63,438 bases of DNA, taken from positions 1-63,438 of the forward strand of contig CABZTD010000010.1 of NCBI GenBank assembly GCA_902528515.1. Direction: 5' to 3'. Numbering within the stretch: position 1 is the stretch's first letter; the number at the start of each line of letters is the position of its first letter. This document shows positions 2,976 to 21,173 of this stretch, piece after piece. Source of the DNA: K189A clade bacterium (GTDB taxonomy: Bacteria; Pseudomonadota; Gammaproteobacteria; Pseudomonadales; Azotimanducaceae). The position numbers and the translations under genes were made by a program. The notes beneath the pieces are model-generated. The model did not search any database and was not told where the DNA came from. It was given only the letters and a program-made list of their open reading frames with translations.

Positions 2976-3056
2976 ATGACACTAAAAGACCAGATCGATC
3001 ACAACTACCACCAGGCAGCGGCAGGCATGGACATCCCCTGGATGCTGCAACAGTGA
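2976..3056 (+). pseudogene. Short 26-residue ORF, possible stump of a larger gene
   Basis: ATG at 2976 opens a 26-codon frame that starts MTLKDQIDHNYHQ and stops with TGA at 3054-3056. Its first dozen residues resemble those of another stump at 5916 (MNLREYIDQSYRA): both have the pattern M-x-L-[KR]-[DE]-x-I-D-x-x-Y. The two lie on either side of the TetR/cupin/amidohydrolase group. The parent family was not recognised. It may be a translated small protein, but I favour a truncated gene start. Confidence 0.3.
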
Positions 3057-3102
3057 GTTGAAAAGACGCCGGCTAATGTCCGGGTGAGAGCCTCAAGGCG
3101 CG

Positions 3103-3777
3103 TCACTGGTCAAGCGTCAACACCTCGAGCAGCCTTGCCTGCGTCCTGGTGAACTGATCGTGCCAGTGTTTTCTGTCAGCCGGTTTTTTGGCGATCCCCG
3201 CCAGCATCATGGAAACGGTTGCTTCTGTTTCAAGTCTGAACTGCTGATCTGTCACCTGCTGCGTAACCCAGCGCTGCAGTAAACCCAGGTATGCATTCCT
3301 TATGGTGTGTGCCACAAGTACCGTGCTCACCGCCGCGTCAATCTGATCCTGATCTGCGGCATCTTTCAGTCCGCCTTCCCATAAGTTGAGCCAATCCGCC
3401 GCATCCCGGGTTTCGGGGGCTGACCCCGGAGCCAGCTTCAACAGGGTCGAGAGAACCGGGCGGTACAGAGGGGCATCACTGATGTACCGTTCGACCCGGC
3501 TCATGGCAAATGCCATGGACTTTGTGAGTCCATCACTGTGGTCGGCGCTGCCGTTCAACGAAGCAGCTGCTTCCAGGGCGTGTTCGGGGTCCAGTACAGC
3601 GGCAAGGACCCCTGCCTTGGACTGGAAATAGCTGTAGGGAGTGACCAGTGCGACCCCCGCCCGCTCTGCCAGTTCCGGCATCGTGAAGTCTGCGTGGCCA
3701 TGCTTCAGGATCAGCCAGGTAGCAGCTTCAATGATCTGCGCTTTCTTGCGTTCCTTGTTCTGGGCTCGCTTCGACAC
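3103..3777 (-). CDS. TetR/AcrR family transcriptional regulator
   Basis: 224 residues from a GTG at 3777 (MSKRAQNKERKKAQIIEAA). The open frame continues upstream into the cupin gene, but the protein family begins close to this basic N-terminus. The helix-turn-helix is residues ~20-60, with TMPELAERAGVALVTPYSYF typical of TetR recognition helices. The C-terminal ligand domain is helical with no recognised ligand. The gene starts 20 bases after the cupin stop and probably forms one transcript with it, divergent from the amidohydrolase. It is the natural candidate to bind the paired inverted repeats at 4368-4407. Confidence 0.88.
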   Translation of the reverse strand: MSKRAQNKERKKAQIIEAATWLILKHGHADFTMPELAERAGVALVTPYSYFQSKAGVLAAVLDPEHALEAAASLNGSADHSDGLTKSMAFAMSRVERYISDAPLYRPVLSTLLKLAPGSAPETRDAADWLNLWEGGLKDAADQDQIDAAVSTVLVAHTIRNAYLGLLQRWVTQQVTDQQFRLETEATVSMMLAGIAKKPADRKHWHDQFTRTQARLLEVLTLDQ

Positions 3778-3780
3778 GTT

Positions 3781-3794
3781 CGGGAGATCTCCCG
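3781..3794. promoter_or_regulatory. Perfect 14-bp palindrome before the TetR gene
   Basis: CGGGAGATCTCCCG lies between the cupin stop and the TetR start. Its GGGAG part, read leftward, can also act as the ribosome binding site about 11 bases before the GTG. A second perfect 14-bp palindrome, GGTCGGTACCGACC, is at 3805-3818 inside the cupin 3' end. Either could be an operator or could occlude the ribosome site. No experiment is implied. Confidence 0.4.
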
Positions 3795-3796
3795 TA

Positions 3797-4324
3797 TTAC
3801 TGCCGGTCGGTACCGACCAGTACAACAGCCATCCGGCAGTGCTCCTCGACACGCCAGGCGTGGCGGGTACCGTTCTGCACGAACACGTCACCTGCCGTCA
3901 GTTCCACCTGCTCACCGTCGTCGAGTTCGAGCTTGATTTTACCTGAAATGATCACGCCATAGTCGACGCTGTCGGTGGTGTGCATGCCTGGGTCGTCCTG
4001 CTCCATGTGACTGGCAACACCGGGTAGCTGAGAAATAAACGCTTCAAGTTCGTCCGGCGATAGCGCGTCCGCCGCGTCCCCCGGTTTGAAATCCAGGACC
4101 CTGAACATTGACTGGTTCGTGCCTGGAAACACGTTATGCAAATCGGCGGTGTATTGTTCTCTCGATTTGCCAGCTGACGTGTCGACCGGGATCTTGTCGT
4201 CGGCATGTGTGGCCCAGATTTCGTGCCAGTCAACGACCGGGGAGCCCACCGTGACTGCCTCGGATTCAACTTTGAAGAATACGGATTTACCCTGTCCATC
4301 ATGGCCGGTGATGACTTTTTTCAT
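3797..4324 (-). CDS. Cupin-domain protein
   Basis: 175 residues. The second half has a cupin barrel: a YGVIISGKIKLELDDGEQ strand pair, then GDVFVQNGTRHAW, which matches the second cupin motif with its metal-binding His. The first motif is weaker (MHTTDSVDYG has one His), so metal binding is uncertain. The N-terminal ~90 residues carry a second, degenerate half. It lies upstream of TetR in the same direction and divergent from the amidohydrolase, which suggests a small-molecule sensing or lyase/isomerase role in the same pathway. The specific reaction cannot be told. Confidence 0.8.
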   Translation of the reverse strand: MKKVITGHDGQGKSVFFKVESEAVTVGSPVVDWHEIWATHADDKIPVDTSAGKSREQYTADLHNVFPGTNQSMFRVLDFKPGDAADALSPDELEAFISQLPGVASHMEQDDPGMHTTDSVDYGVIISGKIKLELDDGEQVELTAGDVFVQNGTRHAWRVEEHCRMAVVLVGTDRQ

Positions 4325-4367
4325 TGTTACACTCCATTGGTGTCTTTAACTGATTGCGCAAAATAAC

Positions 4368-4407
4368 ATAATGAATTATTGTTTTCAAAAATGCATAATG
4401 AGTTATG
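4368..4407. promoter_or_regulatory. Tandem inverted-repeat operator in divergent promoter
   Basis: Two near-identical sites, CATAATGAATTATT (4368-4381) and CATAATGAGTTATG (4394-4407), start 26 bases apart. The second is a perfect CATAA-N4-TTATG inverted repeat and the first differs at the last base of the right arm. They occupy the gap between the leftward cupin/TetR genes and the rightward amidohydrolase, just before its ribosome site. I infer a TetR-type operator. The AT-rich arms could also overlap the -10 elements. Confidence 0.55.
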
Positions 4408-4430
4408 GTTTATCTATCAAGGAGAGTGCC

Positions 4431-5873
4431 ATGGAAAAGACTGTTATCCGCAATGCTTATGTTGCATCGCAAGACCCCCTGATCGGCAACCAGGCAGACC
4501 TGGACATTCTGATTGAAGGCAATCGGATTGCGGCGGTTGGCCGCAATCTTGAGGTGGGAGATGCTGCAGTCATCGATGCCACCGGCTGTATTGTGATGCC
4601 GGGTTTTGTTGATGCCCATCGCCATATCTGGCAGGGCGCCATCCGTGGCGTGTGCGCTGACTGGTCAATCATGGACTACGCGACCCGCATCAGGATGAAC
4701 GCGGCACGATTCTTTACGCCGGAGGATATGTATGCCGCGCAGTTGCAGGGGAGTCTGGAGGCTCTCAACGCCGGTGTAACCACGCTGACCGATTACTGTC
4801 ACAACATTCTGACGCCGGACCACGCCCATGAGGCGATCCGTGGCAGTGCGGAGTCAGGTATGCGTGCCGTATGGAACTACGGCTTTAATTTCCCGCCGTC
4901 CGAGTCCCCTCACTTTAAGTCGCTGGATCAACGCGTCGCTTTCCTGGATGAGATCGCGGCAAGATATTTTTCCTCACCGGATAACCTGTTAACGCTCGGC
5001 GTTGCGCCTGAAGAAGCCACGTTCGCCGGCTCACCGGAGGCGCTGGACCGTCAGATCAATGCTGCGCGCAACGTCGGTGCGCGTATGTTCTGGCACGCCA
5101 ACGGCGGACCCTCGCCCGAAGGCCAGGCACCGCGAGACGTGGCCGCGCTGGCAGAGCGGGAAATGCTGGGCAGCGACATCACGTTTGTCCACATGGCAGC
5201 GACAGAACCGGATGAATGGCAGATGCTGGCAGATGCCGGTGCATCGGTTGCCTTCACACCGGAAACAGAACTACAGATGGGCATGATGTGGCCAAGCAGC
5301 ATCACGGCGAGAGAATATGGTGTGAACCAGGCCTACGGGACCGACATCGTCTCCAACAATTCAGCCGACATGTTCACGGCACTACGGCTTGGTCTGCAGG
5401 CAGTCCGGGGCCGAGTGCTCGAACTGGAAGGGGCGATGGAGACCGGTGTGCCCGTTACCTGCCAGGAAGTCCTGGCCTGGGGAACAATTGACTCCGCGAG
5501 AGCGCTTGGCCTCGACTCGGTGATCGGCAGCATAACCCCAGGCAAGCGGGCAGATCTGGTGCTGCTGCGCGGCGATGCCATTACCCTCGCGGGATGGGAT
5601 CGATCCAATGTTGCGGGCGCTATCGTCATGCAGGCGCAGTCAGCCGACGTCGATACGGTCTGGGTTGACGGCAGAGTCGTTAAAAAAGATGGTCAACTCG
5701 TGGCGGATACAAAGAGACCCTGTGCCTTGCTTGAGGCAGCCAGTGAGCGCCTGCACGAGAAGATTTCAGCCGCAGGGGGCTTCGCACTGTCGCAGACGCA
5801 AGCTGCCGGTCGCATGATGGCGGTCGCGGGCAGTGAGCATGGCGAGTACGTATTTGACAATGAAGTCGTTTGA
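4431..5873 (+). CDS. Amidohydrolase (chlorohydrolase/cytosine deaminase-like)
   Basis: 480 residues from the ATG at 4431, which has GGAGAG at 4421-4426; the frame extends 60 bases further upstream without such a site. The protein begins with the small beta-sandwich (MEKTVIRNAYVASQDP) and enters the TIM barrel at GFVDAHRHIWQG, the H-x-H metal pair. FWHANGG and FVHMAAT supply the later His residues and YGTDIVSNNSADM the catalytic Asp. The C-terminal sandwich contains GSITPGKRADLVLL. This arrangement is that of subtype III amidohydrolases (AtzA/TrzN, guanine and cytosine deaminases), which act on C-N or C-Cl bonds of heterocycles. The substrate is unknown. It is divergent from a cupin/TetR pair that likely regulates it. 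Confidence 0.9.
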   Translation: MEKTVIRNAYVASQDPLIGNQADLDILIEGNRIAAVGRNLEVGDAAVIDATGCIVMPGFVDAHRHIWQGAIRGVCADWSIMDYATRIRMNAARFFTPEDMYAAQLQGSLEALNAGVTTLTDYCHNILTPDHAHEAIRGSAESGMRAVWNYGFNFPPSESPHFKSLDQRVAFLDEIAARYFSSPDNLLTLGVAPEEATFAGSPEALDRQINAARNVGARMFWHANGGPSPEGQAPRDVAALAEREMLGSDITFVHMAATEPDEWQMLADAGASVAFTPETELQMGMMWPSSITAREYGVNQAYGTDIVSNNSADMFTALRLGLQAVRGRVLELEGAMETGVPVTCQEVLAWGTIDSARALGLDSVIGSITPGKRADLVLLRGDAITLAGWDRSNVAGAIVMQAQSADVDTVWVDGRVVKKDGQLVADTKRPCALLEAASERLHEKISAAGGFALSQTQAAGRMMAVAGSEHGEYVFDNEVV

Positions 5874-5915
5874 AACCGGGTTGGCGACAAACAGGAATAG
5901 TCGAGGTTCAGCGAT

Positions 5916-5987
5916 ATGAATCTTCGAGAATACATTGATCAGAGTTACCGGGCGTCGGTGCCGCGGCGGCTGAACCATCCACATTGA
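5916..5987 (+). pseudogene. Short 23-residue ORF resembling the 2976 stump
   Basis: ATG at 5916 gives MNLREYIDQSYRASVPRR and stops at 5985-5987. It shares the opening pattern with the ORF at 2976 although the DNA differs, so the resemblance is at protein level. It follows the amidohydrolase by 42 bases. I could not assign a family. It may be the remaining N-terminus of a gene removed by deletion. Confidence 0.3.
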
Positions 5988-6156
5988 CTGAACACATCAG
6001 TTTCGTGTTGGGATAAGAGATCATCTCCGCATCACTGGCCGATCTTTCAAAAGGCAAGCGACCTTGCCATGGACTGTAACTTCGGAAATGTCTCCTCATC
6101 CCTTAATCGATCGTAAATCTCGCCTTCCTCGTATACCTAAGGATCTTGAAGGTCTT

Positions 6157-6222
6157 CCAATATGTCGCGATCGGCATTTTCAGAGCGGTTCACCAACCTG
6201 ATCGGTACGTCGCCCATCAAGA
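6157..6222 (+). pseudogene. 66-bp fragment of an AraC-type regulator gene (inverted copy)
   Basis: These 66 bases match the reverse complement of 11055-11120, inside the AraC gene, at 63 of 66 positions. In frame they encode NMSRSAFSERFTNLIGTSP, part of the second helix-turn-helix of an AraC protein. Neither the sequence before nor after continues the gene, so this is a fragment. It lies just beyond the 3' end of the aromatic operon and in the opposite orientation to the intact gene. Confidence 0.85.
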
Positions 6223-6244
6223 ATCTTATTTGCCCTGTACCTGT

Positions 6245-7024
6245 TCACATGATGCCAGGATACTGACCACCATCCAGCAGCAGGTTCTGCCCCGTAACAA
6301 AACCCGCACTGGCGCCACAGAGAAAAGCGGCATAAGCGCCGAATTCCTGCGGCTGGCCAAACCTGCCGGCGGGTATACCTCTCTTCGATTTCGCCTGGAA
6401 CTCTTCAACTGTCTGTCCACTCGCCGAGGCAAATCGCTCATGGTTTGAGACCAGCCGATCCGTTTCAAACTGTCCGGGCAGCAAGTTGTTGATGGTCACA
6501 TTGTAAGGTGCAACATCTCGAGCGATGCCGCTGACGAATCCTGTCAGGCCTGCTCTTGCACCATTGGACAAACTCAGGAAAGAAACCGGAGCCTTGACCA
6601 TATGACTGGTCACATTCAGGATCCTGCCGAATCCACGGTCACACATTCCCGGTAGTGACGCATTGATGAGGTCAATGGCGGATAGCATGTTGGACTCAAT
6701 GGCAGACAGCCAGTCCTCGCGACTCAGCTTGCGGAAGTCGCCTACCGGTGGCCCGCCTGAGTTGTTCACTAGAATATCAAGTTCCTGGCAGCGATCGACA
6801 ACACCCTGTCGAGATACCGGGTCTGAAAGATCTACCGCCAGTGCTTCAGGCGTGTGTCCGGTCAACTCACTGATTTCCGATGCAGCCGTCGCCAGCTTGT
6901 CTTCGGTTCTTGCAACCAAAATGAGGCGCACGCCTTCTTCTGCAAGGGCAGTAGCAATCGCCTTGCCCAATCCGGTACTGCCACCACAAACCAGCGCCTG
7001 CCTGTCGGCGATACCTAGGTCCAT
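6245..7024 (-). CDS. Short-chain dehydrogenase/reductase, atypical active site
   Basis: 259 residues with GAGGAG before the ATG. The Rossmann fold is clear: GGSTGLGKAIA (cofactor glycines), VDLSDP and LVNNSGGPP (NNAG-type motif). The usual Tyr-x-x-x-Lys is absent; the corresponding stretch reads SFLSLSNGARAGLTGF. This is the pattern of the BKR-like SDR subgroup that lacks the catalytic Tyr. The C-terminus LLDGGQYPGIM is normal. It is last in the leftward aromatic operon, 22 bases after the diol dehydrogenase. It probably acts on a pathway intermediate, and the reaction is unknown. Confidence 0.85.
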   Translation of the reverse strand: MDLGIADRQALVCGGSTGLGKAIATALAEEGVRLILVARTEDKLATAASEISELTGHTPEALAVDLSDPVSRQGVVDRCQELDILVNNSGGPPVGDFRKLSREDWLSAIESNMLSAIDLINASLPGMCDRGFGRILNVTSHMVKAPVSFLSLSNGARAGLTGFVSGIARDVAPYNVTINNLLPGQFETDRLVSNHERFASASGQTVEEFQAKSKRGIPAGRFGQPQEFGAYAAFLCGASAGFVTGQNLLLDGGQYPGIM

Positions 7025-7046
7025 CTTTTTCTCCTCTATTCAGCGA

Positions 7047-7874
7047 TTATAGTTTTTTGAGCAGGCCATCCCCTCCACGGGGAACAGGACCCAGCCCACG
7101 AACACCAAACCCGCAATCGTGATTCAGTATTGATCCGGTTGCCGGCACATTGTCCTCTCGTGAGGCAAAGAAGACGTAGGCTCCTGCATATTCAGCTGGC
7201 GTGGGTAAACGCGACAGCGGAATAAATCCTGAGGCGCCCGCTTCCATGGCGCTGCCCGGAAACTCCAGGTCCTGCATATCAAGGCTGGCAGGCCCTTTAA
7301 GCTGAGTTGATATCGCACCCGGCGCAACACCGTTGACCCTGATATGCGGTGCAAGTTCGAAGGCGAGCTGCTTGATCAGTCCAACAACCGCATGCTTGGT
7401 CGCCGTGTATAGAACGCCGCCACCGCTCGGCCAGAAACCGGCGTTGGAGACGGTGAAGATCATGGAACCCTGCGACTGCGCCAGCGGTTTCAGCGCAGCC
7501 TTAGACAGCATCAGGTAACCGAGGACATTAATGTCAAACAGCTCGCTGAATGATTGATGCAGTTTATCTGCAGGCAGATCGACGAGCGTAATGTTGTAGT
7601 CCCAGATACCAGCATTACCAATGGCGCAGTCCAGCTTGCCGAAACGATCGACACAAGCTGCAACAGCCCGCTCATTGTCTTCGTACTCACGAACGTCTCC
7701 AACAGTGCCGATAACCCGATCCTCAAATCGGCTTTCAAGATCAGCACAACCTTCAGCAGAACGGTCTAGCACGCCGACACTGGCGCCCTCTTCGATCAGT
7801 CGTTCGACAACCGCAAGACCCAGACCAGATGCACCACCCGTCACGAGGATTGATTGGTTCTCTAATCGACGCAT
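7047..7874 (-). CDS. cis-dihydrodiol dehydrogenase-type SDR (BphB-like)
   Basis: 275 residues. It has VTGGASGLGLAVVERL for NAD binding, CAIGNAGIWDYN, Ser in FTVSNAGFWPSGGG and the catalytic YTATKHAVVG. The IGNAGIWDY and SNAGFWPSGGG segments are characteristic of the cis-2,3-dihydrodiol dehydrogenases (BphB/HcaB type), which oxidise the cis-diol from a ring dioxygenase to a catechol with NAD+. The start lies three bases after the stop of the dioxygenase beta subunit, so the two are co-translated. Order and identity fit a biphenyl, cumene or phenylpropionate-type upper pathway. The ring substrate is unknown. Confidence 0.87.
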   Translation of the reverse strand: MRRLENQSILVTGGASGLGLAVVERLIEEGASVGVLDRSAEGCADLESRFEDRVIGTVGDVREYEDNERAVAACVDRFGKLDCAIGNAGIWDYNITLVDLPADKLHQSFSELFDINVLGYLMLSKAALKPLAQSQGSMIFTVSNAGFWPSGGGVLYTATKHAVVGLIKQLAFELAPHIRVNGVAPGAISTQLKGPASLDMQDLEFPGSAMEAGASGFIPLSRLPTPAEYAGAYVFFASREDNVPATGSILNHDCGFGVRGLGPVPRGGDGLLKKL

Positions 7875-7877
7875 GGC

Positions 7878-8411
7878 TTAAAACAGGCTCGACAGGTTTT
7901 GCGACAGTATGACTGTCTGCTCCAGAAACAGATGACGGCGGCAGAGCAGAAAGCCACCTTCCGATCGACGTAGCGTATCTTCGCGGCGACCAATCCAGCT
8001 GTCCTCTTCACTGTTGAGCCTCGTTCGGTAAAGTTTGAAGTTGCTACGCACGGTTAATTCATCTTCATCAATACTGTCAATTCGCACGTTGCTGATAAGA
8101 CGCCGAGTACGTGACGGTGGATCTTCTGCCCAGGCACGACCGATCGCCAATCGTTGAATCCTCATGGTCAGAATGGTTTTGTCATCGTCGAACAGCGCCA
8201 TGCCACCAGGTGCCGTGAATTCTTTTTCCACTTCCTTCGCCTGGGTGGTTCGCCTGAGTGGCATCCAGTAATGGATGTCGTCGGCCAGCAGATTCAGCCA
8301 TTCGTCAAAGCGGCGTGAATCCAGCAAATCCGCCTCATTGTAGAGAAACTCTTCTGCTTCAAATTTGAGCAGCATTCTTTCCTGCAGCGACAGATCCTGA
8401 TAAGCGCTCAT
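7878..8411 (-). CDS. Aromatic-ring-hydroxylating dioxygenase, beta subunit
   Basis: 177 residues starting MSAYQDLSLQERMLLKFEAE. The ATG (8411-8409) overlaps the TGA of the alpha subunit as ATGA, which fixes the start and implies translational coupling. The NTF2-like fold is marked by FLYNEADLLDSRRFDEWL and LLADDIHYWMPLR, then ISNVRID and SWIGRREDTLRR. The beta subunit has no metal and stabilises the alpha3beta3 oxygenase. The length is the family norm. No ferredoxin or ferredoxin reductase gene lies in the operon, so the electron chain must come from elsewhere. Confidence 0.93.
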   Translation of the reverse strand: MSAYQDLSLQERMLLKFEAEEFLYNEADLLDSRRFDEWLNLLADDIHYWMPLRRTTQAKEVEKEFTAPGGMALFDDDKTILTMRIQRLAIGRAWAEDPPSRTRRLISNVRIDSIDEDELTVRSNFKLYRTRLNSEEDSWIGRREDTLRRSEGGFLLCRRHLFLEQTVILSQNLSSLF

Positions 8412-9766
8412 CAGACTTCTCCCGTTGGTGGCTGTGAGTGATTCGCCATCAACTCCGGCCAATTTTCAGCAGCCATCCAATCCTGCCATGATTGATAGGT
8501 CCAGCGTTGGGCGTGTTCGTTTATGACGGTCTCAATACAACTCTGCCCTGAAGGATCCTGGCTGACCTGATCAGCTTTGTTACCCATGGATAAATTAAGC
8601 GGCAGGGTTTTGCTGAAAGTGCCCTTGGCGCCGCGCGTGGAATGACTCCAATTCTCACCATCATCCTGCTCGAGCACACCAGCAGGTCCGAACATATGGT
8701 TTTGCATATAAGCAGAGAACTTCTGTTCATCTTCTGACATTCCCTTGCGACGGAAGTTAAACCACCAGAGCTCTGTCTCATAAGGACCCCGCGGGATTCG
8801 AAGGCATACTTGATTCGTCTGCGCGATCCACAGGTTTGGGAAAATATTGGGATGACCAAATGAACGCGTTCCGACTGGACCCAGCATTTCTCTGGTTTCA
8901 GGCGAGGTCCGTCTCTCGGCGTGTCGATCGTACCATTGTGGCTCGCCCTCACCGCTGGCCAGTCTGGCATCGTATCTGGCCTGCTCTTCCTCGGATATGC
9001 CTGGCCCGCCAATGCCATGGCCATATTCACCCAGTATCACCATCTGATTGTCAGGTGCCATCGCGGCGTCGTCCAGGATGCCTATTTTAATGGCCGAGCC
9101 GTGGGAAACTTTGACGTGATACCAGTCATACAGGTTATCTACGGCGAGCTTCCAGTTACATTGCAGTCGATTTTTATGGATACCATCAAGAAACTCGATG
9201 TCGCCTTCAGCCAGCATAAAGTCGATGCCAACCTTGCCAACCCAGCCAAGATACTCTTCGAGTGGCGGAGCCTCTGGATCGAGGGTGGCAAAATAAAACC
9301 CCCGGTAGTTCTCGACCTTGGCAGCCGGTGTTAAACCCCAGTCTTTTTTGTCGATGTTGTTGCGATAGAAGTCATCCTCGCCCGGCATGCCGATCAAGCG
9401 ACCATCCAAGTCGTAATTCCATCCGTGATAGGAACAGAAAAAACTTTTGGTATTGCCCAACTCGGCACGGCAGACGGTATTGCCGCGATGAGGACAACTG
9501 TTCAGCAGCACGTTGATGGATTGCTGCCGGTCGCGGACGACGATAATTTCATCTTCACCAATGTAGTTCATCATAAAATCGCCAGGATTCGGTATCTGCG
9601 ATTCGTGACAGACAAAGTTCCAGGCGCGACCAAAGATCTTTTTCAGTTCTTCCTGATAGATCTCTTCATCCGTGAATATTCTCCGGTCCAGTATCCCGGT
9701 TGCCATGTCAAAGCAACCGCTCACATCTACACTTGCCTTGTCGGTCGCTATCAGTGCATCAGACAT
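8411..9766 (-). CDS. Aromatic-ring-hydroxylating dioxygenase, Rieske alpha subunit
   Basis: 451 residues. The Rieske [2Fe-2S] ligands are Cys91-Pro-His93 and Cys111-x2-His114 (CPHRG and CSYHGW). The mononuclear iron site follows at Asp214-x2-His217-x4-His222 (DWYHVKVSH). The enzyme adds O2 to an aromatic ring to give a cis-dihydrodiol. Sequence style and neighbours place it with the biphenyl/phenylpropionate-type dioxygenases, although the substrate cannot be read. The ribosome site GGGAGG is in the short gap that follows the truncated hydrolase stump. The stump frame overlaps the first bases of this gene. Confidence 0.95.
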   Translation of the reverse strand: MSDALIATDKASVDVSGCFDMATGILDRRIFTDEEIYQEELKKIFGRAWNFVCHESQIPNPGDFMMNYIGEDEIIVVRDRQQSINVLLNSCPHRGNTVCRAELGNTKSFFCSYHGWNYDLDGRLIGMPGEDDFYRNNIDKKDWGLTPAAKVENYRGFYFATLDPEAPPLEEYLGWVGKVGIDFMLAEGDIEFLDGIHKNRLQCNWKLAVDNLYDWYHVKVSHGSAIKIGILDDAAMAPDNQMVILGEYGHGIGGPGISEEEQARYDARLASGEGEPQWYDRHAERRTSPETREMLGPVGTRSFGHPNIFPNLWIAQTNQVCLRIPRGPYETELWWFNFRRKGMSEDEQKFSAYMQNHMFGPAGVLEQDDGENWSHSTRGAKGTFSKTLPLNLSMGNKADQVSQDPSGQSCIETVINEHAQRWTYQSWQDWMAAENWPELMANHSQPPTGEV

Positions 9767-9899
9767 TCAGAGTCCTCCCATTTGCCATGCAGTTATTTGA
9801 CACTTCGCCCTGACCCGCGTCGTTAAAATGTATGTTGATTCCATGTACTTCAACATAGCGGCTGGTGTCAGATTCGATATGTGTTTTCAAGCTGTTCAT
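9759..9899 (-). pseudogene. Truncated meta-cleavage hydrolase (BphD/MhpC type), N-terminal stump
   Basis: An ATG at 9899-9897 overlaps the TGA of the extradiol dioxygenase as ATGA and opens a 46-codon frame. Residues 13-31 read SRYVEVHGINIHFNDAGQG, the standard N-terminal strand pair of BphD/MhpC-type alpha/beta hydrolases. The family should continue with the HGGGPG oxyanion motif, but after GQGE (about 9804) the sequence becomes unrelated and contains the ribosome site of the next gene. About 250 residues, with the whole catalytic triad, are missing. The deletion joined the hydrolase start directly to the dioxygenase leader. Confidence 0.8.
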
Positions 9900-10774
9900 T
9901 TTGTTGACTCCGGTTGATGACCCCAGATGCTGGTCTGATTAAAGGTTTTGGGTTGCCAGACCGAATCGTCAATCTCTAGACCACCCCAGCCGTACTCAAT
10001 GTCAAAACCCGACGGTGTTGCCATGTAGAAACTGAACATTTCGTCATTCGGGTGCTTGCCGAGTCCTGATGAGATTCTTACACCGGCAGTTTTAGCGCGA
10101 TCCAGGCCATAGCCAACGTCATCCATGTCTGCAACCTGAAGCATGATGTGATTCAGGCGCTTTGGCAGCGGTATTGGAACGAGTGCGAGTGTGTGATGAC
10201 GAGGGTTGCAGTGGAGAAAAGTCAGCTCCAGTTGCTGGTCAGGCGGGCCAACAACAATATGGTCTGACAGAAGAAAACCAAGCCCGTCGAGGTAAAATTG
10301 TTTGGCTGCTTCAAGATCACTGGCGCAAAGCACCACATGACCAAGTCCCTGTCCCTCGGTGACGAAGCCGCCGACACCAATGGGTGACTTAAAAGCTAAG
10401 GTTCCCAGTCGCTCACCGATGTAAAGCTCAACCCTCAGTCCATCGGGGTCAAAGCAAATTTTCAGCTGTTCGACCTGTCGGGCAGCGCATTCCTCCTCAC
10501 TACCATCGCTTATATTGATGCCCTGCGCGGATAGGCGATGACAGACAGATTGAAGTGCCTCTTCGGAAGTCAGACGGAAACCGAGGCAAGTGATGTCATC
10601 TTCGCCAGTTGGTTTTGCCTGGATTCGCCAAATGGTGCGGTCGTAGCTCAGATTCAGCACACCCTCATGAGCTTCACTGCTGACGCCGAGAACGTTGTCG
10701 GCGTATTGCTGCCAGTCATCAAGACTAGTCACACCTACTTCGATATAACCCAGTTCTGCAATTGAATCGGTCAA
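9896..10774 (-). CDS. Extradiol ring-cleavage dioxygenase, type I (BphC-like)
   Basis: 292 residues from a TTG at 10774, chosen because GGGAG precedes it by six bases; a further upstream TTG at 10807 lacks a site. Two vicinal-oxygen-chelate domains are present. The N-terminal one begins ELGYIEVGVTSLDDW. The catalytic domain has GHVVLCASDLEAAKQFY, HHTLALVPIP and GFDIEYGW, giving the 2-His-1-Glu iron site. It cleaves a catechol such as 2,3-dihydroxybiphenyl in the meta position. Its stop overlaps the start of the broken hydrolase that would have handled the product. Family assignment is firm. Confidence 0.92.
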   Translation of the reverse strand: MTDSIAELGYIEVGVTSLDDWQQYADNVLGVSSEAHEGVLNLSYDRTIWRIQAKPTGEDDITCLGFRLTSEEALQSVCHRLSAQGINISDGSEEECAARQVEQLKICFDPDGLRVELYIGERLGTLAFKSPIGVGGFVTEGQGLGHVVLCASDLEAAKQFYLDGLGFLLSDHIVVGPPDQQLELTFLHCNPRHHTLALVPIPLPKRLNHIMLQVADMDDVGYGLDRAKTAGVRISSGLGKHPNDEMFSFYMATPSGFDIEYGWGGLEIDDSVWQPKTFNQTSIWGHQPESTK

Positions 10775-10884
10775 GTTGCTCTCCCATACCGGTCTTTGAT
10801 TAGGCAAAAATACTAGGAGGATGGTGCCTTTTTAGCTATGAGCGCAGGCACTGAAAAATTGATCGATCGTCCACTGAGTAGTTG

Positions 10885-11721
10885 CTAGGTCTTTCGATCC
10901 CTGAGCCAACGACCCGGTGTGGTGGCAAACTCCCGCTTAAAGGCCCGATTGAAAGCCTCTTCGCTGGTGTAGCCACAGGCAATGGCGGTCTTACCAATTG
11001 ACTCACCCTCCAGCATCTTTCTTGCAGCGAGTTTCAGGCGAATTGATGCCAGCATCTTGATGGGCGAAGTACCGATCAGGTTGGTGAACCGTTGTGAAAA
11101 TGCCGATCGCGACATATTGGCAATGTCGGCCAGCTCCGCAACGCTCCAGTCCCGTATCGGATCTTCGTTGATCGCCGAAACAGCTTTCATCAGTCTTGGG
11201 TCGCTCCAGGGATACGAATCAAGTTCACCGGTGACAGGGTTGCCCATGCGAAAGGAATAGAAAACGATCAGCTCCGCCGTTCGCTCCAGCGTCAGTTGAT
11301 CAGGCTTGATTTCCGTGTGAGTAATTTCTTCAACAACCAGATCCATGGCAAGAAACAATCGCGCTAGCATCGGGTTGCCACTATCAGCACGAAAACAAGT
11401 GATGCCCGGAGCACCACCAAGCCATGCGAGAAACTCCATTGGCTCACTGCCGATCAATAGTTGTGTTGATTTTTCGCCGATCTGCTCGACACTGTGTCCG
11501 ATAAAGCCGCTGACGATAATCGTATCGCGGCAGCCAGCGACAGTGGCGCCGTAGTCTGCCGAAGTGACTTGCACAGAACCTTTCAAGACATGGTAAAAGT
11601 ACCCAGCAATACCGGCACGACGCGGTAGATTCTCACCTGCGCCCAGGGTGACAATTTCGTAACTGACGTCCTGCATGCGAAAGTCATACAAACTGTGGGG
11701 TCTTGGCGGTTTAACGGGCAT
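10885..11721 (-). CDS. AraC family transcriptional regulator
   Basis: 278 residues from the second Met (11721), which has GGGG eight bases upstream; the first Met at 11727 is only two bases from that site. The N-terminal half is a cupin ligand domain (YFYHVLKGSVQV, GCRDTIIVSGFIGHS). The C-terminal ~100 residues carry two helix-turn-helix units, DWSVAELADIANMSRSAFSQ and SIGKTAIACGYTSEEAFNRA. It lies directly upstream of the extradiol dioxygenase in the same direction and is the probable activator of the aromatic operon. A 66-bp part of it (11055-11120) is repeated inverted at 6157-6222. Confidence 0.92.
   Translation of the reverse strand: MPVKPPRPHSLYDFRMQDVSYEIVTLGAGENLPRRAGIAGYFYHVLKGSVQVTSADYGATVAGCRDTIIVSGFIGHSVEQIGEKSTQLLIGSEPMEFLAWLGGAPGITCFRADSGNPMLARLFLAMDLVVEEITHTEIKPDQLTLERTAELIVFYSFRMGNPVTGELDSYPWSDPRLMKAVSAINEDPIRDWSVAELADIANMSRSAFSQRFTNLIGTSPIKMLASIRLKLAARKMLEGESIGKTAIACGYTSEEAFNRAFKREFATTPGRWLRDRKT
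11055..11120. repeat. Inverted repeat partner inside araC
   Basis: Reverse-complement match (63/66) to 6157-6222. The two copies flank about 4.8 kb that contains the extradiol dioxygenase, the hydrolase stump, the Rieske dioxygenase and both SDR genes. Confidence 0.85.
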
Positions 11722-11790
11722 ATTCATTTCCCCTGTTTATCCGGCCTAATCGCAACAGCCAGCCACTGCCAGCGCGGCCGCGGCTTCAAC

Positions 11791-12933
11791 TCAATCCAGC
11801 AATCCCAGAACCCGTTTCGCGATGATGTTGAGCTGCACTTCCGAGCTTCCTCCGGCAATGAGGAAGCCTTTGCTAAGCAACATCTTTCTTGTGGTGGCGA
11901 GTTCGGCGTTCGAGAATCCGGTGCCGTGCCAGCCGGTCCCCTGGGCCCCCATGAGGGCAACCGTGATGTCCAGACCATCACTCTCAAGACGCGTCGACAA
12001 GTGTTTGAAGGTTGATGTTGCAAACGTTGCTGCGCCCGGTGTTTTTTGCTCCGCCGCCGCGCGCTTTTTTGTCAGATCAAAGGCCGCCTTGCGCATCTCG
12101 TGGTCCAGGACCCGGTTGCCGGCGGCAACGTCGCCAGGCGCATAGCCCTGCAGGATCTCTGGCAGGCTGCTACTGCGAGGAATGAAGCTACCCTCGCCAA
12201 CGGCCGAGCGCTCGAACTGTAACAAGCGTTTCGCGATCCCCCAGCCGCGGTTCTCCTGACCGACGAGATCCCTCTTCTCGGCCTTCACATCGTCAAAGAA
12301 CACCTGGCAGAACTCTGATTCACCATTGATCAGCTCTATCTGGTTGACCGTGAGACCCGGGTCATCCATGGAGATCAACACAAAACTGATCCCCTCCTGC
12401 TTGGGCACATCCACATCGGTTCTGACAAGGGCGAACATCCAATCAGACATGTAGGCATTGGAGGTCCAGATCTTTGAGCCATTCACCAGGTAGTGGTCGC
12501 CCTGCGCCGACGCACGAGTTTGCAGCGAAGCCAGGTCGGAACCTGCTCCGGGTTCCGAGTCACCCTGGCACCAGCGAATCTCACCACTCGCAATCTTCGG
12601 CAGGTGTCGTATCTTCTGATCGTCAGTACCCATTTCTAGCAGCAAAGGTCCCAGCATCTCTGCGCCAGCGCCCGAAAGCGGAACCGGTGCACCATTAACA
12701 CGGAAGGCTTCTCGCAGGGCCGCCACCCCCGCCTTGTCGAACCCTGCACCACCATAGGCCTTGGGCCAATCAGGAACAGTGAAGCCCCGATCAAAGCAGG
12801 CATCAAACCAGGCACGAAATGCCGGGTCGGTGATTGCCTGGTGACTGCCGCCGCCGTATTTGAAAACACTACCAACCAGTTCAGCCGGACAGTTCGCTCG
12901 TACCCAGTGGCCCAATTCCTCAGTTAATGTCAT
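11791..12933 (-). CDS. Acyl-CoA dehydrogenase
   Basis: 380 residues with the family order: N-terminal helices, WCQGDSEPGAGSDLASLQT (FAD/substrate loop), DHYLVNGSKIWTSNA and the C-terminal IAGGSSEVQLNIIAKRVLG. It oxidises an acyl-CoA to the trans-2-enoyl-CoA and passes electrons to ETF. The tail resembles the acyl-CoA dehydrogenases of steroid and aromatic side-chain degradation (FadE-like), but the substrate is unknown. It sits upstream of araC in the same direction. A GST, a DUF1993 protein and a crotonase lie further upstream, so it likely shares their operon. Confidence 0.92.
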   Translation of the reverse strand: MTLTEELGHWVRANCPAELVGSVFKYGGGSHQAITDPAFRAWFDACFDRGFTVPDWPKAYGGAGFDKAGVAALREAFRVNGAPVPLSGAGAEMLGPLLLEMGTDDQKIRHLPKIASGEIRWCQGDSEPGAGSDLASLQTRASAQGDHYLVNGSKIWTSNAYMSDWMFALVRTDVDVPKQEGISFVLISMDDPGLTVNQIELINGESEFCQVFFDDVKAEKRDLVGQENRGWGIAKRLLQFERSAVGEGSFIPRSSSLPEILQGYAPGDVAAGNRVLDHEMRKAAFDLTKKRAAAEQKTPGAATFATSTFKHLSTRLESDGLDITVALMGAQGTGWHGTGFSNAELATTRKMLLSKGFLIAGGSSEVQLNIIAKRVLGLLD

Positions 12934-12975
12934 ATAGAACTTCTATTGAATGAAGAATCGAATCGCCCTTTAGCG

Positions 12976-13713
12976 TCATTCGATGGAATCCTTGATGTTC
13001 TCGTTGTCGGCGATCGTCGAGCCACCCTTTGCGGTGCGTGCCTTTCGCTCAGCACTCCACTGATCGATCTCTTCCTTCGGTATGCCATAGCCAAGCCCAC
13101 GCTCAACACCCGGCCGGGCACGCACGCGGTCGACCCATTCCATAACAGCTGGTCGGTTAGTAATGTTTACCTTGCTCCACTTCCACCCACGTATCCACGG
13201 ATAAAGCGCGATATCGGCAATCGTGAATTCATCGCCGCATACCCAGGGATTGTCACCGAGCTTGCCATCCAGCACACGCACCAGTCGCAGCGCTTCATTG
13301 TTAAAGCGCTCAAGGGGGTGTTCCTTTTTGATATCTGGCACATCATCCATATAGCGCGTATAGCTCAGCTTGTTGCCAAACACCGGCCCCACGTTAGCCG
13401 CCTGCCAGTAAACCCAGGGCAACACGTCCCACTTGCGTTCATCGAGTGGCAGCAACGAGCTCGGATGCTTTTCGCCGAGGTACTGCAGGATTGCACAGCT
13501 CTCGATGACATCCCGGTCGCCATCGCGCAGCGTTGGAATCTTCTGGTTGGGGTTGCGCTCGGTAAAGTCATCCTCGAACTGCTCACCTTTCATCAGGTCG
13601 ATGGTGCGCACTTCCACGGGGCCAACATCGATACCGACCTCGATCAGTTCCTCGATCATGATGTTCACCTTCCAGCCGTTTGGCGTGGGCGAGGTCCATA
13701 ATTCTAAAGCCAT
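12976..13713 (-). CDS. Glutathione S-transferase, YfcG/Ure2p-like
   Basis: 245 residues with GGGGAGA before the ATG. The thioredoxin-like domain begins ELWTSPTPNGWKVNIMIEEL and has NPNQKIPTLRD and ESCAILQYLGEK, the glutathione-binding loop. The helical C-terminal domain contains WVCGDEFTIADIALYPWIRG. The Thr/Asn-rich start (TPNGWKV) is that of the YfcG/nu-class group, which has disulfide reductase or dehalogenating activity. GST genes (bphK) often accompany biphenyl clusters, so its presence near one is notable, though co-function is an inference. Confidence 0.9.
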   Translation of the reverse strand: MALELWTSPTPNGWKVNIMIEELIEVGIDVGPVEVRTIDLMKGEQFEDDFTERNPNQKIPTLRDGDRDVIESCAILQYLGEKHPSSLLPLDERKWDVLPWVYWQAANVGPVFGNKLSYTRYMDDVPDIKKEHPLERFNNEALRLVRVLDGKLGDNPWVCGDEFTIADIALYPWIRGWKWSKVNITNRPAVMEWVDRVRARPGVERGLGYGIPKEEIDQWSAERKARTAKGGSTIADNENIKDSIE

Positions 13714-13740: not shown

Positions 13741-14262
13741 TTAAAGGTTGACGCGCAGTTGTCCCAGATAGTCCATCTTGCCCAGAGGCACGCCGTGTTC
13801 ACGCAGCACCGCATAGGTGGTTGTCGCGTGAAAGTAAAAATTGGGCAGGGAAAAGGACAACATGAAGTTGTCGGTGGTAAAGGGAATCTCAGTCTTGCCC
13901 ATCTTGAACAACATCGGTTTGTCTGCCAGGGCATTGATCGCCTCCGGCGTCTCACCCTGCAGCCCCTCAATGGCCTCGTTAACCAGACCCCTCAGACCCT
14001 GGTAATCCAGCCCGCTCATCTTCGGCGGCGGAGAGAACTCCCCGGCTTTCAGGCCCTTGATGGCATTCAGGGAATGGTGCCAGACGGAAATGACCTGAAA
14101 ACTGAAGGGCGCCATGTCTTCGCGCAATTGATAGCTGACAATCTCCTCCAGATCCATATTGCCGGTGGCAGCATATTCCTCGCCTTTGGCAAGGACATTG
14201 GCGACGCCACCCAGGATTTGTAGATGGGAAGCTACGCTCAGGTCATACAGTGATACAGACAT
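13741..14262 (-). CDS. DUF1993 family protein
   Basis: 173 residues recognisable as DUF1993 (begins MSVSLYDLSVASHLQILGG; later LPNFYFHATTTYAVLREHGVP). The family has a DinB-like four-helix fold and no proven enzymatic role. AGAGGAATAG precedes the ATG. It lies 27 bases upstream of the GST in the same direction and probably in one transcript with it and with the crotonase. The function is unknown. Confidence 0.85.
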   Translation of the reverse strand: MSVSLYDLSVASHLQILGGVANVLAKGEEYAATGNMDLEEIVSYQLREDMAPFSFQVISVWHHSLNAIKGLKAGEFSPPPKMSGLDYQGLRGLVNEAIEGLQGETPEAINALADKPMLFKMGKTEIPFTTDNFMLSFSLPNFYFHATTTYAVLREHGVPLGKMDYLGQLRVNL

Positions 14263-14291
14263 TTTCTATTCCTCTATTGATCATTTTTAAT

Positions 14292-17604: not shown

Positions 17605-18105
17605 GTGGCCTGTAAGTCTGACCGGCGCAAGAAACTTGAGCGTCTTTGCCGGTATATCACGCGGCCTGCCATCGCCGAGCGCCAGGCTCAACTCTGTGTT
17701 TATCACCGAGGTGAGCGGGTCGTCGACCTGTGGGCGGACAAGATTGGCGACAGCAACTACTCCGCCGACTCCATTGCCAACGTGTTCAGCAGCAGCAAGA
17801 GCCTCGAGGCGATTGCCGTGGCCTACCTGGTGGATCGGGGCCAGATCAGTTACGACGCAAAGGTCACCGAATACTGGCCCGAGTTTGGTGCCAACGGCAA
17901 GGAAGGAATTACCGTTGCCGATGTTATGCGCCACGAAGCGGGCATGGCCACTTTCGATTCGCGGGTCGATATGGAAGAGCTGTTAACTGACAAGCTCAAC
18001 CAAAACTCCGTGGGCCGCATTTTTCAACAGCAGGGTCTCAACTACGACGGCGCCGGCGATGGTAAACGCGAACACCACGGTTTTGCCCGCGACTGGACCA
18101 TCAAC
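17605..18105 (+). pseudogene. Truncated serine hydrolase of the beta-lactamase/EstB family
   Basis: The frame contains VYHRGERVVDLWAD, then FSSSKSLEAIAVAYLVDRG, where Ser-Ser-Ser-Lys holds the catalytic S-x-x-K, then VMRHEAGMATFD and a decayed continuation to about DWTING. The second catalytic motif (Tyr-x-Asn) and the last half are missing, since the family is about 380 residues. The N-terminus is also poor: the GTG at 17605 leads into sequence without family likeness for about 25 residues. The gene runs head-on into a crotonase fragment on the other strand. I infer a deletion that fused two convergent genes. Confidence 0.72.
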
Positions 18106-18138
18106 GGTATAGAGAATCTCTTCGTAGCCTGCAGTCAT
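17983..18138 (-). pseudogene. Crotonase (enoyl-CoA hydratase) N-terminal fragment
   Basis: ATG at 18138 with GAGGAA five bases upstream gives MTAGYEEILYTVDGPVA, the standard start of enoyl-CoA hydratases. From about 18088 the frame has no family likeness because it is antisense to the truncated serine hydrolase. The 51-codon frame stops at 17983. The start follows the EthD gene by nine bases, so the intact gene was once part of the leftward operon. Confidence 0.7.
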
Positions 18139-18147
18139 CGTTCTTCC

Positions 18148-18444
18148 TCAAACGGTCGCGAACATGGATATCGCGCCTTCTGGGCAGAAGTTTGGCACAT
18201 CCGCTGCGGCAGCCTGTCCGGCATCAGAAGCAAGGGATGCTGCCATGTGTGCCTCGTCCTTAAAGTAGAGCTCCGCCATGCGGTGGTACTCAGGCGCTGA
18301 ACCGTCAGGGCCGGGATTGAATAGAGTCAGTTCCATCCTCTCGACGTCCATCTCGTCTGCCAGTGGCATGTGGATCTGCGTGTAGTGTTGTTCAAAGGCC
18401 CCAGCGTCTTCGGGGTGCCTGTAGAGTAACGTCATTTTGATCAT
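18148..18444 (-). CDS. EthD family protein
   Basis: 98 residues: MIKMTLLYRHPEDAGAFEQHY, then QIHMPLADEM, the His-containing segment typical of the EthD dimeric alpha/beta-barrel fold, and a C-terminal strand AISMFATV. EthD proteins accompany P450 or other monooxygenase systems and may help product handling or act as small cyclases/isomerases. It lies downstream of the Baeyer-Villiger monooxygenase and tandem ABM genes on the same strand, so a role in that oxidation route is likely. Confidence 0.85.
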   Translation of the reverse strand: MIKMTLLYRHPEDAGAFEQHYTQIHMPLADEMDVERMELTLFNPGPDGSAPEYHRMAELYFKDEAHMAASLASDAGQAAAADVPNFCPEGAISMFATV

Positions 18445-19346: not shown

Positions 19347-21173
19347 TTATTGACCAATTTCCATACCGGCAAGATCTCCAGCGTCCCGCCACTTACCCAG
19401 AAACGCATTAAAATCATTGCAGTTGCCGGGAAAAACCCCAACTTGCACACTGCTGGCGGGGTCACCCTCATTGTTGTAGTAGCTTGGCGTACACTGCGCC
19501 TGGAAATCGGCCGCCCCCATCATCGAAGGTGTGCTCATGACCATCTCGGTCCACTCAGCCTCGGCTTGCTCACATGGCTGAATCTTCTTGATGTTGCGCT
19601 TAAGAGCCGTAGCGGTGACATAGGCGATGTGTCGCGCGAGGTCGTCCAGTACGGCGGTAATATTGACGCTGAACGGCGTCTGCAAACCGAAGGCGGCCAT
19701 GAAATAATTCGGGAAGTTGCGCACTGAGACCGCTTGGAAGGTGCGGTAGCCGTTTGCCCACGCGTCGCTTAACGTCAGTCCGTTCTCTCCGATGATGTCG
19801 TAGCCGGTTCGCTGCTTCATGGAACCGGTAAGGTCGAATCCGGTGGCGTATATGATGCAGTCAACCTCGTATTCGACACCTCCGGCAACAATGCCCGTCT
19901 CGGTGACGCATTCGATTCCCTGGGATTCACTGGTGTCGATGAGCGTCACGTTCGGACGATTGAAGGTCGGCAGATATTCGTCGTTGAAGGTGGGGCGCTT
20001 ACAGAACTGTCGATACCAGGCCTTCAGCTTTTCACGAGTCTCAGGATCAGTCACGGTTTCATCGACCCGCTTCCGAACGTCGTCGGTGTACTTCAGATCG
20101 ACAAGGTCAGTCAATGCCGCAAACTCTTCTGCGGAAGGTGGCGGATCGAGCTCTGACAAGAACTCAAACACGCCACGGACTTGAGACGTCCAACCATCCT
20201 GAACCAGGATACCGTTTTCGTCCGGCTGGAAGGTCATTGCCGCGTCGAAGTTACGGCGGCGCTGTTCCTGCCAGCCGGGTTGCAGCGAAGCTGCCCACTC
20301 TGGATTGGTAGGCGCATTTTGACGCTCAGCCACACTTGCTGGTGTACGTTGGAAGACGTAGAGGTGCTCGGCGCTCGCCGCTACGTAAGGCACACACTGA
20401 ATCGCGGTACACCCGGTCCCAATGACCGCGACCTTTTTATCACCTAGCCGATCGAGATTAGTGTCGCTGGTACTACCACCGGTATAGTCGTAATCCCAAC
20501 GGCTGGTATGGAAGACCTTACCCTTAAAATCTTCAAGCCCCGGCGCGCCAGGGAGCTTCGCGCGGTGCAGGCTACCCGGCGCTGTGATCACGAAACGGGC
20601 GCGCATCTCGTCGCCACGATTCGTCGTCACTATCCAACGAGCACAGTCTTCATCCCACTGCACCTGCTCGACACGGGTGCGGAAGCAGGCGCTGGCGCGC
20701 AGGTCAAAGTTCTCCGCAATTTTCTGGGCTACATCGAAGATTTCGTTGGCGTAGGAATAACGTTCCTTGGGTGTGTAGCCGAGTTCATCGAGCAGCGGCA
20801 GATAGCAATACGACTCGATGTCGCACTGGGCGCCGGGGTAGCGATTCCAGTACCAGGTGCCGCCGAAGTCACCCGCCTCCTCGACAATGCGCAGGCTGGC
20901 AACGCCCTGTTCGCGCAGACGCGCGGCGCAAAGCATACCACCGAAGCCGGCACCGATGATCAGCACATCGATTTCGTCAGTCAGCGGCTCGCGCTCAACC
21001 TCACCGTCGACGAAAGGATCCGCGAGCAGATGGTCGAAGCCCTCAGCGGCGCGGCGGTATTGATCACTGTGATCCGAGCGCAACCGCTTCTGTCGCTCTT
21101 CCTGGAAGCGCGCATTTAACGCTTCCCGGTCGATGCCCAACTGCTCAGCAATGGCTTGAATTCGATCACTCAT
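19347..21173 (-). CDS. Baeyer-Villiger-type flavin monooxygenase
   Basis: 608 residues from the ATG at 21173 (MSDRIQAIAEQLG); the frame extends upstream without support. Two dinucleotide-binding sites are present: IGAGFGGMLCAARL for FAD and VIGTGCTAIQ for NADPH. The BVMO fingerprint appears as FKGKVFHTSRWDY (F-x-G-x-x-x-H-T-x-x-W-D). The N-terminal extension and length fit the cyclohexanone/phenylacetone and steroid monooxygenase group, which inserts oxygen beside a ketone. It is preceded in the operon by a PhyH and a TonB receptor and followed by ABM and EthD proteins. This suggests ring opening of a cyclic ketone. Confidence 0.92.
   Translation of the reverse strand: MSDRIQAIAEQLGIDREALNARFQEERQKRLRSDHSDQYRRAAEGFDHLLADPFVDGEVEREPLTDEIDVLIIGAGFGGMLCAARLREQGVASLRIVEEAGDFGGTWYWNRYPGAQCDIESYCYLPLLDELGYTPKERYSYANEIFDVAQKIAENFDLRASACFRTRVEQVQWDEDCARWIVTTNRGDEMRARFVITAPGSLHRAKLPGAPGLEDFKGKVFHTSRWDYDYTGGSTSDTNLDRLGDKKVAVIGTGCTAIQCVPYVAASAEHLYVFQRTPASVAERQNAPTNPEWAASLQPGWQEQRRRNFDAAMTFQPDENGILVQDGWTSQVRGVFEFLSELDPPPSAEEFAALTDLVDLKYTDDVRKRVDETVTDPETREKLKAWYRQFCKRPTFNDEYLPTFNRPNVTLIDTSESQGIECVTETGIVAGGVEYEVDCIIYATGFDLTGSMKQRTGYDIIGENGLTLSDAWANGYRTFQAVSVRNFPNYFMAAFGLQTPFSVNITAVLDDLARHIAYVTATALKRNIKKIQPCEQAEAEWTEMVMSTPSMMGAADFQAQCTPSYYNNEGDPASSVQVGVFPGNCNDFNAFLGKWRDAGDLAGMEIGQ

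Follow-up and report, generated by a model that had tools for sequence, protein, structure and literature searches.

Does the inverted pair of araC-derived sequences that flanks an aromatic dioxygenase operon act as an invertible switch, or is it a trace left by rearrangement of the locus? The question arises from the window, i.e. the whole stretch of 63,438 nucleotides analysed here. Self-BLAST of the whole window recovered the pair, formed by positions 6157-6222 and 11055-11120, with an E value of 5e-23, and no other pair at E≤1e-3. The two arms are 66 nucleotides long, are identical at 63 of the 66 positions in inverted orientation and are spaced by 4832 nucleotides. The match and the bracketing of an operon of about 4.8 kb, both reported in a sequence-only reading of this DNA, were thereby reproduced. 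The intervening DNA contains two SDR genes, the genes for Rieske beta and alpha, the extradiol dioxygenase gene and the 3′ end of araC. Exact stretches of 26, 1, 23 and 13 bases make up the alignment. The window's longest perfect inverted run is 26 bases, whereas the longest runs in 20 windows simulated with a first-order Markov model all measured 14-17 bases. Chance can therefore be excluded as the origin of the pair. The left arm is located just past the last gene of the operon and has sharp edges on both sides. It remains open in the araC frame, where it reads NMSRSAFSERFTNLIGTSPIK, followed by 14 unrelated residues and a stop. The same earlier reading held that this piece codes for part of the AraC helix-turn-helix. 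Its match to the HTH_AraC profile, at E 0.043, is below the curated cut-off. Overall, an inverted pair made from a piece of a gene is confirmed as a real observation. The features discussed below are collected in Table 1.

Table 1. Features of the araC-flanked locus and of its left side (window coordinates)
Feature	Position	Strand	Remarks
TetR (-), cupin (-), amidohydrolase (+) block and first ~57 bp of acyl-CoA synthetase gene	3125..5963	+	94%, collinear with Gammapro10 C80:7233-10074
Truncated 5′ end of AMP-binding acyl-CoA synthetase gene	5907..5963	+	57 bp versus 58 bp in Gammapro10
Internal thiolase gene fragment	5961..6032	-	reads AEMISYPNTKLMCSVNVDGSAAA, without stop
Scar segment without convincing match	6033..6156	.	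124 bp
araC fragment (left arm)	6157..6222	+	part of the helix-turn-helix codons; self-BLAST
SDR block (gene 6245-7024)	6229..7026	-	no DNA match in Gammapro10
cis-Dihydrodiol dehydrogenase (BphB/HcaB-like), Rieske beta and Rieske alpha	7027..9784	-	97% to Gammapro10 C64
HcaB/BphB-like dihydrodiol dehydrogenase	7047-7874	-	
Rieske beta	7878-8420	-	
Rieske alpha	8411-9766	-	
Start of alpha/beta hydrolase gene	9785..9899	-	start codon placed by eye
Extradiol (BphC-like) dioxygenase	9896..10807	-	
araC-family regulator	10885..11727	-	right arm inside, at 11055-11120

A single relative carrying the cluster was found, PKCZ01000193.1, from a metagenome-assembled genome named "Proteobacteria bacterium isolate Gammapro10" (G061, hereafter Gammapro10), in a scan that used one genome per species and reaches close relatives only. 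Searching the literature for Gammapro10 by name returned nothing. Contig C64 of this genome matches window positions 7027-9784 and 9804-11957 at 97%, and its AraC is 98% identical to that of the window over 280 residues. Using this sequence, the fragment, the window's own araC and the Gammapro10 araC were compared over the 66 positions. The fragment agrees with the Gammapro10 gene at 65 of 66 positions and with the window's own gene at 63. Differences occur at positions 27, 29 and 53; the fragment has the Gammapro10 base at the first and the last of these, and at 29 its base is private. Over their full length of 843 positions, the araC genes of the window and of Gammapro10 show 13 differences. 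A copy of the present araC of the window is disfavoured as the source, since at two of the three differing positions the fragment shares its base with Gammapro10. Thus, the earlier description of the repeats as derived from araC stands as regards the gene but not as regards the allele now present in the window. The fragment may have parted from araC before the gene acquired its changes at positions 27 and 53, or it may come from a strain with a Gammapro10-like allele, two readings between which two sites cannot separate. Should the fragment and Gammapro10 have kept the ancestral base at both positions, the fragment could also derive from an earlier form of the araC of the window. The sequence-only reading had also pointed to a second araC gene as a potential source of the left arm. 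The draft genome to which the window belongs (2.13 Mb, 75% complete) yielded no full second copy, and the parent copy would therefore be either lost or unassembled. A full parent araC at the place of the left arm was likewise not found in Gammapro10 or in 37 other genomes of the genus and order. The left arm is a partial gene cut at both ends, as expected of a gene remnant.

Other remnants, the synthetase 5′ end and the thiolase piece, lie at the same break. Together, the thiolase fragment, 124 bases without convincing match and the araC fragment form a scar of 265 bases at 5964-6228; the araC piece is followed by 6 bases and then by the SDR block. Synteny is broken on both sides of the scar, as the match with Gammapro10 contig C80 ends at 5963 and that with contig C64 ends at 7027. 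On contig C80, a gene for an AMP-binding acyl-CoA synthetase comes after the amidohydrolase gene and runs on to the contig end. The block shared with the window breaks about 57 bp into this gene, and the triplet at the position of its GTG start is TTC in the window. Just left of the shared block, window positions 2980-3100 hold a second 5′ fragment of an acyl-CoA synthetase gene, reading LKDQIDHNYHQAAAGMDIPWMLQQ and then a stop. It was likened by eye to the Gammapro10 synthetase, and the corresponding DNA match is 73% over 52 bp (E 0.073).

The 72-bp thiolase fragment encodes residues identical to those of the L007 thiolase. Matches of 80-88% were found in 11 of the 37 other genomes searched, and the three that were checked (in G010, G019 and G023) are thiolase genes. 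No close homologue of the matched thiolase was found in either genome compared: the best full-length match is 31% in the genome of the window, and the best in Gammapro10 is 43%. The segment 6033-6156 gave nothing convincing against Pfam at E up to 10, and its DNA matched the window's own genome and Gammapro10 only at E above 1. A 29-residue reading on its minus strand (6050-6136) gave weak matches, with E values of 0.02-1, in 53 out of 144 other genomes; a match at E 0.028 was also obtained on contig C64 of the window's own genome. In one genome, G177, the matched place was recognized by eye as a DnaG-like protein. These matches were not adopted as indicating the origin of the segment.

The whole scar was found in no other genome, in searches that included the 37 genomes of the genus and order and Gammapro10. 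The search of the 37 genomes with a 501-bp query scored nearly all candidate places; two further genome searches scored part of the candidate places in each genome (mostly 7 and 3), and absence there is weak. In a plasmid collection, 30 records matched the query, none covered 80% or more of it, and the 20 matches listed of these 30 are short pieces covering 2-6% of the query.

The orientation of the left arm could suggest an antisense role. Read-through of the operon on the minus strand would carry 66 nucleotides complementary to the araC mRNA, which would damp araC expression. Indeed, positions 6222-6157 of the minus strand are the reverse complement of the araC sense strand, and no terminator-like match lies between the SDR gene and the left arm, the only such match in 5850-6350 being at 6328-6341 (-), inside the SDR gene. 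This idea would fit by orientation only; the arm is found in the genome of the window alone and sits within debris, and we regard such a regulation as extremely improbable.

We then compared the operon of the window with that of Gammapro10. Among the operon products, the beta subunit passes the curated cut-off of one NCBIfam model (NF007479) and the dehydrogenase that of another (NF004849), whereas the scores with the BphC and HcaE models are below their own cut-offs. Gammapro10 has about 3.4 kb of extra DNA (3.47 kb) separating its extradiol dioxygenase gene from that for Rieske alpha, with genes for an alpha/beta hydrolase, a protein of the FAA-hydrolase fold, an acetaldehyde dehydrogenase and a 4-hydroxy-2-oxovalerate aldolase. 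From its position, we read the FAA-hydrolase-fold protein as a hydratase. At the corresponding place the window has only the start of the hydrolase gene: positions 9804-9899 belong to the 97% stretch, and positions 9785-9803 align to the next bases of the hydrolase gene with small gaps. Past the dehydrogenase gene, a second Rieske alpha gene in Gammapro10 stands in place of the SDR gene of the window. Therefore, either the operon of the window is a shortened and re-joined derivative, or both operons have diverged by several such steps. The hydrolase start left behind points to the window as the shortened version. As in the hca/mhp and bph clusters, the window combines a BphC-like extradiol dioxygenase, Rieske alpha and beta subunits and an HcaB/BphB-like dehydrogenase, to which Gammapro10 adds hydrolase, hydratase-like, acetaldehyde dehydrogenase and aldolase genes. 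Unlike these clusters, the window has no lower-pathway genes here apart from the hydrolase start, and it has an extra SDR gene.

The comparison also bears on the proposal, made in the sequence-only reading, that the pair could mediate inversion. According to this model, the arms would form a functional switch: recombination by RecA or by a recombinase would invert the 4.8-kb operon, and araC would alternate between a full and a truncated form. Inverted arms with perfect runs of 26 and 23 bp are in its favor, and homologous inversion over such an arm length is possible in principle. From the translation, inversion would swap the 3′ end of araC for 14 unrelated codons and a stop; together with the Pfam coordinates, this predicts that the inverted araC would end without the second half of its helix-turn-helix domain. 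However, alignment with the close relative, which the same reading had called for, showed araC and the operon of Gammapro10 in the same orientation as in the window (one relative), with no inverted form. In addition, the 66 bases were found once in the Gammapro10 draft, within araC, with no second copy detected. The arms have not been homogenised, since 3 of 66 positions differ and the left arm resembles another allele, that of Gammapro10. The left arm is surrounded by other gene scraps, and a Pfam search of 20 proteins encoded at 0.1-21.3 kb of the window found no recombinase family. The type examples of phase-variable invertible segments are hin and fim. The window resembles them in that an inverted pair brackets a segment with genes. 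It differs from them in that the arms, which in an invertible segment are kept identical, are diverged (63/66) and unequal in context, in that the switch would cut the regulator gene, and in the lack of a recombinase among the scanned proteins and of an inverted form in Gammapro10. The absence of an inverted form in Gammapro10, the divergence of the arms and the scar context led us to reject the switch, which we hold to be very unlikely.

Short gene tails were also found elsewhere in the genome of the window. The 3′ 295 bp of the SDR block (6229-6523) recur at 98% at C17:24098-24392 (L004 6099-6393), and the downstream edge of this tail is the same in both places. Similarly, a 91-bp GST 3′ tail (12975-13065) matches C17:14941-15031 at 86%, and a 73-bp amidohydrolase 3′ tail (5813-5885) matches C12:7188-7260 at 88%. 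A 47-bp piece (14228-14274) is shared with the araC contig of Gammapro10 at 96%. These data were complemented by a repeat census of window positions 1-60000 against the own genome (E≤1e-3), which is not exhaustive: a 53-bp match at 83% between window 19834-19886 and C17, seen in direct BLAST of the contigs, was missed by it. In the first 20 kb, the census returned the araC pair, the SDR, GST and amidohydrolase tails and three more distant matches (68-74%). Eleven off-site matches with 66-91% identity were obtained at 20-40 kb, and none at 40-60 kb. The scraps examined fall in the catabolic part of the window. At 17605-18300, an ORF of 231 residues matches only positions 17-135 of the 329 of the Pfam Beta-lactamase (serine hydrolase) profile and, because of this partial match, may be a shortened gene. 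On contig C17, an inverted duplication of ~630 bp with 79% identity was also seen (L044 4695-5318 and 13491-14119).

These tails bear on a more trivial explanation, in which the scar would be a chimeric join produced by assembly or binning. The source is a draft of 89 contigs, 75% complete and probably a metagenome-assembled genome, and a mosaic of unrelated pieces could look like a chimera. However, several false joins, all covered by tiling reads, would be needed to produce a 265-bp scar made of pieces of 66-124 bp. Moreover, the araC piece differs from the contig's own araC, comparable short tails of genes are present on two further contigs of this genome, and the near-identical 47-bp piece is common to the window and the araC contig of Gammapro10. 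An artefact is therefore unlikely.

Our preferred explanation, which we consider quite probable, is that the left arm is debris, an internal piece of the same araC orthologue, lodged in a rearrangement scar between unrelated blocks of a shuffled catabolic island. It is supported by the 65/66 identity of the araC fragment with Gammapro10, its sharp edges and the thiolase scrap in the same scar, by the end of the Gammapro10 block at 5963 inside the synthetase gene and the SDR tail edge repeated in C17, and by the ~3.4 kb missing from the operon and the short gene tails in C12 and C17. A second or earlier araC copy, in opposite orientation and with a Gammapro10-like allele, would have lain at the place of the left arm; alternatively, a short piece of such an araC would have been joined in. 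Serial illegitimate joins and deletions may then have removed the rest of the copy and put the synthetase 5′ end, the thiolase fragment, the 124-base segment, the araC fragment and the SDR block side by side. The gene debris is best read as recent, and several recent joins would be needed because both ends of the thiolase and araC pieces lie inside genes. The inverted pair would then be incidental, and inversion through RecA would have a low chance at best. Thus, the earlier suggestion that the repeats record an insertion or rearrangement holds in modified form, the fragment being one of several scraps at a junction of blocks. Several observations count against the debris reading: 124 of the 265 scar bases have no convincing match; the 75%-complete draft has no second araC, which makes the parent copy an inferred one; no close parent of the thiolase piece turned up in the own genome or in Gammapro10; and a single relative with the cluster was found, in a scan reaching close relatives only. 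Bacterial genomes, which show a deletional bias, keep gene remnants after deletion, such as pseudogene fragments in spacers. Like these, the pieces of the window are short, sharply cut, devoid of start or partner and located in a spacer at a block edge, next to an operon that has lost genes. Unlike them, the two internal pieces are open in frame, with unchanged thiolase residues and an araC piece at 65/66 to Gammapro10.

This last feature would also fit a short-patch insertion, in which pieces of ~66-124 bp from several sources or strains are joined in one or a few events. Competence uptake, or template switching with foreign or own DNA as template during break repair, would be the possible routes. 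Short-patch illegitimate recombination occurs in naturally competent bacteria, where short DNA of other origin replaces or interrupts the local sequence, as in the window. A literature search with the phrase "short-patch double illegitimate recombination" returned nothing. In favor of such an insertion, the scar contains two internal gene pieces of similar length (72 and 66 bp) that point in opposite directions and are both open in frame, and the araC piece has an allele absent from the contig. However, deletion of larger inserted genes would give the same end product and explains the pattern of the window too, larger tails are also present (SDR, 295 bp; hydrolase, ~115 bp), and the whole scar was found in no other genome. 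Short-patch insertion, whichever of the routes is considered, is therefore a candidate of rather low probability. If true, it would mean that this lineage builds new spacers from scraps, a signature that could be counted across its genomes.

Overall, the debris reading makes the scar a local record of a catabolic island that has been cut and joined. It also carries a warning, as an inverted pair derived from a piece of a gene is not, alone, evidence of an invertible switch. Finally, compared with Gammapro10, the operon of the window lacks the lower meta pathway here, and the annotation of its metabolism should change accordingly.
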